Below are positions 583 through 10,813 of a DNA stretch of 33,602 nt, piece after piece (within the stretch, counting starts at the first letter, position 1; each line of letters starts with the position of its first letter). A program made the position numbers and the translations under genes. The notes under the pieces were generated by a model, which saw only the letters and a program-made list of their open reading frames with translations, searched no databases and was not told the DNA's origin. This DNA comes from Actinomycetota bacterium (GTDB taxonomy: Bacteria; Actinomycetota; Acidimicrobiia; IMCC26256; PALSA-610), in NCBI GenBank assembly GCA_005772765.1, contig SXIR01000049.1:1-33602 (forward strand), given 5' to 3'.

Positions 583-1503
583 TCAGGGGAGGTTGAAGAC
601 GCGTTGGGCGTTTTCGCGGAGGAACTTGGGCCAGACGTGGTCGCGAAACGCGACGTGGGGCAGTTCGGCGAACTGGCGCTCATACGACAACCCGGCCGGG
701 AAGTAACCCGAGAAGATGATCTTGTCCGCACCCCGCGTGTTCGCGTAGTTCACGATGTCGGCCGGATAGTGCTTCGGCGCGAACGCGGTCGTCGAGTAGT
801 AGAGGTTCGGCCACTTCAACATGAGCTTCACCGCCAGCGCGGTCCACGGTTCGCAGCCGTGACGGGTGACGAACTTGAGCTCGGGGAAGAACCAGCAGAT
901 CTCGTCGAGGTGTTCGACCAACTGCGGTTCCATCGGAATGCGCGGACCCGGCACGCCCACCGTCGAACAGAACGGTAGATCGAGCTCGATGCACTTCATG
1001 TAGATCGGATAGAACTTCTTGTCGTTCAACGCGACCTGCGGATACAGCCCCGCGGGGAAGCAGTGCACCAGTTTGAGTTGGTCGCCGAACGTCTCTTTCG
1101 CCCGCTCGATGTGGCGCAGCGCATCCATCCCTTGATTCGGGTCGGCCATCACCGAAGCCGAGAACCGATCGGGATGCTCCCGCAGCGCGCGCCGTTCGTC
1201 GTCGGAGCCGCCGCCGGTGACGAGATGCGACAGCCCGTGCGTGTCCATCAACGCGACCATGAAACGAACTGGATCGTCGAGCTCGTCGGCGTCCCACTCG
1301 GGAACGTCTTTGAACATGTACCCCGCCGGGAACTTCAGACCGCCTTCGCCCTCACGCGACTGCGCATCCATCGTCTGTTTGCGGATGAACTCGTAGAACT
1401 CGAACATCTCCTCTTTGGACTTCGGGAAGCCGACCGCGGTGTCGATGACCCCGCCTCGGCGCGCCTCGTCGAACGCAGCGTTGCTCGATGGTGCCCAACT
1501 CAC
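583..1503 (-). CDS. Amidohydrolase-2-like TIM-barrel protein, paralog 3 of 3
   Basis: 306 aa, GTG start at 1503 overlapping the stop of the preceding gene as GTGA, so translation is coupled. The frame stays open far upstream, but that extension lies over the neighbouring gene. The protein aligns along its length with the two genes before it: a GGVIDTAVGFP N-terminus, FPAGYMFKDVP, DKKFYPIYMKCIELD, ELKFVTRHGCEPW, LMLKWPNLYYSTTAFAP, NYANTRGADKIIFSGYFP and FRDHVWPKFLREN. This is the PF04909 fold (ACMSD-like decarboxylases and hydrolases). However, the N-terminal HxH and the late metal-binding Asp of catalytic members are absent. A link to CoA-ester or ring-cleavage catabolism is inferred only from its neighbours. 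Confidence 0.8.
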   Translation of the reverse strand: MSWAPSSNAAFDEARRGGVIDTAVGFPKSKEEMFEFYEFIRKQTMDAQSREGEGGLKFPAGYMFKDVPEWDADELDDPVRFMVALMDTHGLSHLVTGGGSDDERRALREHPDRFSASVMADPNQGMDALRHIERAKETFGDQLKLVHCFPAGLYPQVALNDKKFYPIYMKCIELDLPFCSTVGVPGPRIPMEPQLVEHLDEICWFFPELKFVTRHGCEPWTALAVKLMLKWPNLYYSTTAFAPKHYPADIVNYANTRGADKIIFSGYFPAGLSYERQFAELPHVAFRDHVWPKFLRENAQRVFNLP

Positions 1504-2408
1504 TTCGACGGTCCCATCCCGAACAGCGACAACGCGTTGTCGCGGAGGAACTTCGGCCAGACATGGTCGCGGAAGCCGACGCCCGGCATCTCGGAGAAGA
1601 TGCGCTCGAGCGAGAGCCCCATCGGGTAGTAGCCGCTGTAGATGATCTTGTCGGCGCCACGCGTGTTCGCGTAGTTGACGATGTCGGCGGGGTAGTGCTT
1701 CGGCGCGAACGCCGAGGTCGAGTAGTAGAGGTTCGGCCACTTCAACATGAGCTTCACGGCGAGGGCCGTCCACGGTTCGGCGCCGTGACGCATCACGAAC
1801 TTCAGGTCGGGAAAGAACCAACACACCTCGTCGATGTGCTCGACGTGCTGGCACATCATCGGGACGCGCGGTCCGGGCACGCCGGCATTGACGAAGATTG
1901 GGATGTCGAGCTCGACGCACTTCGCATACAGCGGGTACATCTTCTTGTCGTTGATCGGCACCTGCGGGGTGAGCCCAGCGGGGAACACCTGGGCGGAGCG
2001 CACGCCGAGGTTGCGTACACCGGCTTCGAGGTTGCGCACCGCGTCCATGCCCTCGTTGGGGTCGACGTCCCAGGAAGCGATGAACCGGTCCGGATGCTCG
2101 GCGACCGCGCGGCGCGCCTTCTCGTTGGTGGCAACGTTGACCATCCCGTGGCTGATCTTGAAACGGTCCATCTCGGTGACCAGCAGATCGATCGGGTCGT
2201 CGATCTCGTCATAGTTCGGGATGTCCTTGAACATGTATTGCGCCGGGAACGTGAACTGCTCGCGCGCTTCCTTGTCGAGGATCTGGCTAGCGAACTTGTC
2301 GTAGTGCTGGGTTTTGCGTTCAGCGGCGGTTGCCGGAATGCCCATCATGAGGTCGACGACACCACCTTCCCAGGCGGCGAAGTATGCGGGATTGACCGAG
2401 TCAGTCAT
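1500..2408 (-). CDS. Amidohydrolase-2-like TIM-barrel protein, paralog 2 of 3
   Basis: 302 aa, ATG start at 2408, overlapping the end of the upstream paralog by 8 nt; its own stop forms GTGA with the next start. Domain layout is the same as in its neighbours: GGVVDLMMGIP near residue 15, FPAQYMFKDIP, DPNEGMDAVRNLE, FPAGLTPQVPINDKKMYPLYAKCVELD, DLKFVMRHGAEPW, LKWPNLYYSTSAFAPKHYPADIVNYANTRGADKIIYSGYYP and FRDHVWPKFLRDN. The conserved His of RHG is kept. The HxH motif is reduced to D-L-M-M-G, and the usual FGSDxP aspartate is Gly/Tyr. Middle gene of a coupled three-gene operon. Specific substrate unknown. Confidence 0.8.
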   Translation of the reverse strand: MTDSVNPAYFAAWEGGVVDLMMGIPATAAERKTQHYDKFASQILDKEAREQFTFPAQYMFKDIPNYDEIDDPIDLLVTEMDRFKISHGMVNVATNEKARRAVAEHPDRFIASWDVDPNEGMDAVRNLEAGVRNLGVRSAQVFPAGLTPQVPINDKKMYPLYAKCVELDIPIFVNAGVPGPRVPMMCQHVEHIDEVCWFFPDLKFVMRHGAEPWTALAVKLMLKWPNLYYSTSAFAPKHYPADIVNYANTRGADKIIYSGYYPMGLSLERIFSEMPGVGFRDHVWPKFLRDNALSLFGMGPSK

Positions 2409-3297
2409 CGAGCTTGAACACCTTTCGCGCGTTCTCGTGCAGGAACTTCGGCCAGACGTGGTCGCGGAACGCGACGCCCGGCAGCTCATCCATGATTCGA
2501 TCGAGGGACAGCCCCATCGGGAAGTAGCCCGCGTACATCACCTTGTCAGCGCCGCGAGTGTTGGCGTAGTTGACGATGTCAGCGGGGTAGTAGCGGGGTG
2601 CGAACGCGGACGTCGAGTAATAGAGGTTCGGCCACTTCAGCAACAGCTTGACGGCGAGGTCGGCCCACGGTTCGCAGCCGTGCCGCGTGACGAACTTGAG
2701 CTCGGGGAAGTACCAGCAGACTTCGTCGATCAGGCCGACGTACTGGGGTGCGAACGGCAGCCGTGGACCTGGCACTCCCGCGCACACACAGATCGGGATG
2801 TCGAGTTCGATGCACTTGGCATAGATCGGAAACATCTTCTTGTCGTTGATCGGCACCTGGGGGTTCATGCCGGCCGGAAACGCGGTCGCGGCCTTGATGC
2901 CGATCTCGTCGTGCGCACGCATGAGCGCACGGACGCCTTCCATCCCGAGGTTCGGATTGACCTCGTACGATCCGAAGAAGCGATCGGGGTGACGTTGCAT
3001 CGCTCGATGGCCGAGATCGCCAGGCGTGTTCGTGCCGACCATTCCCTTGGCGATGCCATGCTGATCCATCAACTCGACGAGGTGCGCGATCTTGTCGGGC
3101 TTTTCTGCAAAGTGTGGCGGCTGCTTGAACATGTACTGCGCCGGAAACTCGAAGTCCTCGGTCGACTCACGGTCGTGCAGCAGCGGCTTCATGAACTCGT
3201 AGTGCGCTCGCCGGTCGTCGATCGGGAAGCCCAGCATCAAGTCGATCTTCGGGGTGGTGGCGACAATCGCACGCGCGTCGTTCGGGGAGTCGCTCAT
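2401..3297 (-). CDS. Amidohydrolase-2-like TIM-barrel protein, paralog 1 of 3 (operon lead gene)
   Basis: 298 aa, ATG at 3297, eight bases after a TACGTT -10 box, so it is probably read from a leaderless mRNA. Markers by residue: KIDLMLGFP (17-25), FPAQYMFKQ (51-59), FPAGMNPQVPINDKKMFPIYAKCIELD (140-166), CVCAGVPGP (170-178), FVTRHGCEPW (202-211) and NYANTRGADKVMYAGYFP (243-260). Compared with ACMSD, only His206 of the metal ligands is evident. HxH is missing, the mid-barrel VHP His is replaced in VCAGVPG, and the terminal Asp is replaced in MYAGYFP. It heads the operon divergent from the Ltp/DUF35/CaiB genes and shares their palindromic control site. Confidence 0.82.
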   Translation of the reverse strand: MSDSPNDARAIVATTPKIDLMLGFPIDDRRAHYEFMKPLLHDRESTEDFEFPAQYMFKQPPHFAEKPDKIAHLVELMDQHGIAKGMVGTNTPGDLGHRAMQRHPDRFFGSYEVNPNLGMEGVRALMRAHDEIGIKAATAFPAGMNPQVPINDKKMFPIYAKCIELDIPICVCAGVPGPRLPFAPQYVGLIDEVCWYFPELKFVTRHGCEPWADLAVKLLLKWPNLYYSTSAFAPRYYPADIVNYANTRGADKVMYAGYFPMGLSLDRIMDELPGVAFRDHVWPKFLHENARKVFKLDD

Positions 3298-10345: not shown

Positions 10346-10813
10346 TCAGTGTTCGTGGTCGATGCCGAGCGTGACGAGCGTGCGGCCAAGCGCGATGAAC
10401 GACCCGATACAGATCGTGAGGTCGAGGATCTCCTGGTCGCTGAACGCGGCGTGCATCCGGGTCCAAAACGCGTCGTCGATTCGTTGGTGGTCGTACGCGA
10501 ACCGTTCGGCGTATTCGATCGCCAAGCGTTCCTGTTCGTTGTACCCCTCGAAGTCGAGGTTCTCGACGTTCTCGTAGAGGGCTTCGTCGACGCCGTGATC
10601 CCGCAACTGCGGGATACGAAACGTCAGTCAGTTGGGGCAGTCGTTGATGCGGGCGATGCGCATGCGCGCCGCCTCTCGCACCCTCGGCGCCAGCACGCTG
10701 TCGCCGTACACGGCCATCGACAAGTTCGCGACCGCTGCGCCGAACTTGGGGTGGATGCTCCAGACCCGGACCTGCTCCGGGCCGTCGCCGTCAGGAACTC
10801 CGATGCGTGCCAT
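10346..10813 (-). CDS. Carboxymuconolactone decarboxylase/AhpD-like protein, probable selenoprotein (in-frame TGA as Sec62)
   Basis: 155 aa if the TGA at 10630-10628 is read as selenocysteine. Codons 1-61 run from ATG 10813 through VREAARMRIARINDCPN. The TGA follows, then LTFRIPQLRDHGVDEALYENV and the rest of the fold (ERLAIEYAERFAYDH, FWTRMHAAFSDQEILDLTICIGSFIALGR). In the family the AARMRIA helix ends in a redox CxxC; here it reads C59-P-N-U62. The downstream half keeps full family resemblance and has no start codon of its own except an internal TTG. A SECIS-like hairpin begins 12 nt after the TGA. AhpD-like proteins act as peroxidase or disulfide reductants and are a known selenoprotein group. 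The alternative is a recent nonsense mutation of a Cys codon. A TAAGGT -10 box lies 8 nt before the start. Confidence 0.8.
10598..10615 (-). promoter_or_regulatory. SECIS-like hairpin directing selenocysteine at the TGA 10630-10628
   Basis: In the mRNA, AUCCCGC (10615-10609) pairs perfectly with GCGGGAU (10604-10598) around the tetraloop AGUU (10608-10605). The stem starts 12 nt, and the loop 19 nt, after the UGA. Counting U of UGA as 1, the loop G and U fall at 24 and 25. In E. coli fdhF the SelB-contacting loop G and U are at 23 and 24. This fits the known bacterial pattern of a short apical stem with a G in the first two loop bases. The bulged U17 of fdhF is not reproduced. Confidence 0.7.

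Follow-up and report, generated by a model that had tools for sequence, protein, structure and literature searches.

The window, the whole stretch of DNA analysed (33,602 nucleotides, from an uncultured actinobacterium), carries on its minus strand, at 10346..10813, a coding sequence for a 155-residue AhpD/CMD-like protein that seems to be broken by a single TGA. Read from 10813 to 10346, the frame opens with MARIGVPDG and its translation is MARIGVPDGDGPEQVRVWSIHPKFG...NDCPN(TGA)LTFRIPQ...GIDHEH, followed by a terminator that is also TGA. The only internal stop is codon 62 (10628..10630, minus strand), in the context TGAC. As judged from the frame and the aligned homologs, it takes the second position of an active-site CxxC, whose first Cys, C59, is encoded by TGC at 10637..10639 on the same strand; read as selenocysteine (Sec), it would be residue 62 in the motif C59-P-N-U62. 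A sequence-only reading of this locus had described two half-genes in one frame, parted by a TGA exactly at the second Cys of the CxxC, with family resemblance kept in the downstream half, and both descriptions were borne out. The gene aligns with its homologs over residues 1-152, on both sides of the TGA, and identity persists past it. GC3 is 0.90 upstream and 0.85 downstream of the TGA, as in other window genes, and its high value past this codon indicates that the downstream half is coding sequence. Moreover, the match to PF02627 (CMD) spans the TGA when this is read as a residue, with 29.1 bits for a cut-off of 23.

In all, 109 distinct homologs were collected by a protein search of 58 same-order genomes and a single scan of GTDB-220 genomes. 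The aligned codon 62 is TGC in 70 of them, TGT in 22 and TGA in 17, with no other codon, so that every homolog has either Cys or TGA where the sequence-only reading had proposed to look for them. The in-frame TGA is therefore aligned with a Cys conserved among homologs, as expected of a selenoprotein gene. E47, C59 and C/U62 are conserved in 109/109 homologs. The TGA genes come from about 14 genomes, comprising same-order loci and MAGs labelled Acidimicrobiia or Actinobacteria/Actinomycetota, and the base that follows the TGA is C in 17/17. All Mycobacterium homologs have Cys. One weak TGA match (L059, in genome G003) showed no convincing hairpin and was left out of the count. On a maximum-likelihood tree, for which Sec was entered as Cys so that the codon-62 column did not drive the topology, the Sec/Cys state changes 8 times, and at least 3 of these changes are forced by well-supported branches. 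One record, L151 (CAMDCC010000097.1), is titled as a Bifidobacterium breve MAG, but its contig agrees in length (9411) and in CMD position with contig C97 of genome G043, from the order of the window; its title looks mislabelled.

The gene could be a pseudogene, a nonsense mutation having killed a CxxC gene in this strain. The one in-frame stop, as well as the lack of a close copy in same-genus genomes, would fit such an event. However, the 17 homologs have the TGA at the same codon, never TAA or TAG, and none of the 17 has a second in-frame stop; codon bias and conservation carry on downstream, and a hairpin goes with the TGA forms. A pseudogene is thus very improbable.

This hairpin lies at 10598..10615 on the minus strand and starts 12 nt after the TGA. 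It is made of AUCCCGC (10615-10609), the loop AGUU (10608-10605) and GCGGGAU (10604-10598), exactly the perfect 7-bp stem and tetraloop that had been claimed from the sequence. The loop G and U are presumably one position off their placement in E. coli fdhF. The spacing had also been held to be typical of bacterial SECIS elements, and the geometry agrees with the published bSECIS model, in which a stem of 4-16 bp bears a loop of 3-9 nt with G in loop position 1-2, the loop lying 16-37 nt after the UGA (PMC13188914). In the window, the stem has 7 bp, the 4-nt loop has G at position 2 followed by U, and the UGA-to-loop distance is 19 nt. Taken alone the hairpin is only mildly unusual, as about 3% of synonymous recodings equal it (p about 0.03). 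Its weight therefore comes from its conservation and not from its energy. All 17 TGA genes have a hairpin at a fixed distance, with the loop G 21 nt after the TGA. An in-register stem of at least 6 bp was found in 16/17 TGA genes and 0/92 Cys genes (Fisher p about 3e-18, a value that ignores relatedness), and one of at least 4 bp in 17/17 and 13/92, respectively. The in-register test was used since a free search for any hairpin discriminates poorly (16/17 TGA genes and 32/92 Cys genes). Finally, stem covariation was scored in a 12-sequence alignment: 14 cells have both sides changed, a number reached in 0/500 shuffles, while slid controls gave 0-4. The position of the TGA and the homolog-wide conservation of the hairpin far exceed chance.

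These data also bear on a sequencing or assembly error, in which the TGA would stand for TGC or TGT. The sequence comes from a single MAG, and TGA is one base from the Cys codons. Yet 16 other loci share the TGA, and the window gene has the hairpin that is absent from 92/92 Cys genes. We consider an error extremely improbable; this one and the pseudogene are effectively excluded.

A similar TGA was observed in a second, distant CMD-like gene of several relatives (loci L044-L046, also L056 and L057), at the same place and within CGYU, CGLU or CRTU. In L044-L046 this gene shares a cluster with the first, at a distance of a few kb (L044:4497-4889, minus strand; L045:4326-4643, minus strand; L046:7604-7996, plus strand). 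Mostly, a hairpin follows soon after the TGA of these second genes. The energy test with a fixed unpaired loop suits the 12 close homologs only; the loop of the second CMD paralogs is 2-3 nt earlier, so that their p-values in this test are not meaningful.

Sec insertion calls for its own machinery, and the sequence-only reading had proposed a search of the genome for the sel genes. In the host MAG, of 3.6 Mb and 80% completeness, a tRNA-Sec gene lies at C139:286-375, with a score of 68 bits (gathering score 47) and the anticodon TCA, and ARAGORN agrees on its identity (tRNA-SeC). A short tandem repeat, cagccgcgagccgtcgcagtca, of about 22 bases, is found immediately 3′ of this gene (L001:385-515, host contig C139). 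The host also has selD, which itself bears a TGA at the active site (GAG-U-ACK), and a second selenoprotein is thus predicted in the genome. This selD (in-frame TGA, U23) is directly followed by a putative EgtB/SenA-like gene (L012:1465-3906, host contig C218), an order which we take to resemble the senC-senA arrangement of selenoneine biosynthesis. Only the 3′ end of selB was recovered, right where contig C81 stops, with 74% identity over 53 residues to the SelB of the same-genus genome G056. The search for selA found no copy in this 80% complete assembly, so that the expected set was recovered in part: tRNA-Sec, selD and the 3′ end of selB. In G056, selB is immediately preceded by selA and followed by ArsA-like and inositol-phosphatase-like genes, the latter two also being found downstream of selB on C81. 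Since selB abuts the end of C81 and G056 has selA just upstream, the rest of the host selA-selB locus most likely falls into a gap of the assembly, and selA probably with it. Both same-genus genomes carry selA and tRNA-Sec. tRNA-Sec and/or selA are present in 9/9 genomes with TGA homologs; for sel genes, the comparison of 9/9 TGA-form with 16/23 Cys-form genomes goes in the right direction but falls short of significance (p about 0.07). In two genomes, the selA matches fall into two or three adjacent pieces (G050:C1:1022593-1023891 and G044:C1:658815-659970), which suggests frameshifts, possibly from sequencing indels.

The frame is open and conserved on either side of the TGA, which would also be expected if UGA were decoded otherwise, as Trp, by general readthrough or under a reassigned code. 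Against this, TGA terminates the selenoprotein gene itself and most neighbouring genes, the aligned residue is Cys and never Trp, and the genome has tRNA-Sec and SelD. Such decoding can be given hardly any credence. None of the observations that the sequence-only reading had named as refuting Sec decoding was borne out, be it a genome devoid of sel genes, relatives with neither Cys nor Sec at this position or a sequencing error. Therefore the locus is almost certainly a bacterial selenoprotein gene in which UGA62 is read as Sec under the guidance of the hairpin, and which encodes a thiol-selenol redox protein of AhpD/CMD fold. The homolog codons, the TGA-tied hairpin, tRNA-Sec and SelD together support Sec decoding; we infer actual Sec insertion, thiol-selenol redox catalysis and the substrate.

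The AlphaFold2 model of the protein is all-helical and confident (pLDDT 94.5). The best Foldseek matches in the PDB are PA0269 and other AhpD-like proteins, which, with the PF02627 match, places the protein in the AhpD-like/CMD family by domain and fold. The fold resembles that of PA0269 (2O4D, 2IJC; TM about 0.75-0.8) and that of M. tuberculosis AhpD (1GU9, 1KNC; TM about 0.6). It is also of the CMD type seen in the debrominase Bmp8 (6OHI), to which there is HMM similarity, although this resemblance is remote (15-17% identity over the structural match). In common with AhpD-like peroxidases, the protein has a Glu placed 12 residues ahead of the first Cys and a CxxC/U active site: E47, C59 and U62 correspond to Glu118, Cys130 and Cys133 of M. 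tuberculosis AhpD. The proton relay of PA0269 and M. tuberculosis AhpD involves Glu, Cys, His/Tyr, Cys and His; of these, both Cys and the final His are reportedly invariant in the family (PMC3141380). In the window protein, unlike PA0269 and M. tuberculosis AhpD, the second Cys is replaced by Sec and the catalytic His (His55 of PA0269, His137 of M. tuberculosis AhpD) is HMM-aligned with Arg66. This Arg is present in 109/109 homologs, and the relay is altered alike in Sec and Cys forms. Thus the AhpD/CMD assignment of the sequence-only reading holds for fold and family but not for the catalytic His of AhpD. Since this His is Arg, peroxidase activity cannot be assumed, and a peroxidase role of the selenoprotein is uncertain.

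That AhpD-like CxxU selenoproteins exist, as had been stated, has been in the literature since 2005; the Sargasso Sea data yielded both AhpD-like and CMD-domain selenoproteins with CxxU (PMC1088965). The GOS data added the AhpD-like 2 family (pfam02627), with 70 sequences and a higher abundance in non-marine samples (PMC2398784), and reviews published in 2022 and 2026 list AhpD-like/CMD CxxU selenoproteins (PMC9312934, PMC13188914). The window gene resembles the Sargasso and GOS AhpD-like 2 and CMD-like selenoproteins in PF02627, CxxU, the bSECIS hairpin and the existence of Cys homologs. Unlike that metagenomic set, it belongs to Acidimicrobiia-type genomes with Cys relatives, the comparison being one of features. 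With the NCBIfam selenoprotein models NF053654 and NF041047, the protein remains far under the cut-offs, reaching 34.1 bits with NF053654 (YciW-related (seleno)protein) for a curated cut-off of 310, so that neither model would give it a name. In standard annotation, the window gene and its 16 TGA homologs would be split or dropped. A full-text search of a collection of papers found no dedicated report on Sec use in Acidimicrobiia, which this homolog set documents. It forms a compact Sec/Cys family in which an in-register SECIS hairpin of at least 6 bp occurs only with TGA, and would help to test the reasons for Sec/Cys interchange and the function of the Arg-bearing AhpD-like active site.

In the mechanism we propose, tRNA-Sec and SelB would read UGA at codon 62 as Sec, with the hairpin 12 nt downstream as their guide, while the terminal UGA would stop translation as usual. 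In the resulting all-helical AhpD/CMD-fold thiol-selenol redox protein, Sec62 would take the place of the second active-site Cys of AhpD and Cys59 that of the first. Oxidation would create a Se-S bond between Cys59 and Sec62, which a cellular reductant would then reduce. As a weaker step, the change of His to Arg66 and the CoA-transferase, P450 and SDR neighbours in relatives may point away from a classical AhpC-AhpD partner and towards a function in redox or peroxide handling alongside lipid-type CoA catabolism.

The gene neighbourhood is consistent with such a role beside CoA-linked lipid-type catabolism, which we put forward as a weak suggestion. In relatives, a cytochrome P450 gene lies directly downstream on the same strand in 15 cases and a CaiB-type CoA transferase gene directly upstream in 9, some cases in either count being double-counted from overlapping collections; SDR genes are also found nearby, as is a second CMD gene. 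In the window, the selenoprotein gene is divergent from a DinG-like helicase gene, and amidohydrolase, thiolase-like, ChsH2-like and CoA-transferase genes lie some 3-10 kb off. It is conceivable, if rather doubtful, that the C-x-x-C/U + Arg subfamily lacks peroxidase function and instead provides a redox enzyme dedicated to an Acidimicrobiia CoA-transferase/SDR/P450 catabolic pathway, in which Sec and Cys forms would exchange repeatedly and several relatives would have a second CMD selenoprotein (CGYU) nearby in the gene cluster. Contamination of the bin by this contig was considered and rejected, the closest relative of the adjacent helicase being of the same genus, with 77% identity. The nearest homologs of the CMD gene, at 60% identity, come from other families of the order and not from the same genus. 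This difference between the two neighbours suggests that the CMD gene may owe its presence to horizontal transfer or differential loss. Elsewhere in the window, three consecutive Amidohydro_2 genes (586-3297, minus strand) look like tandem duplicates.
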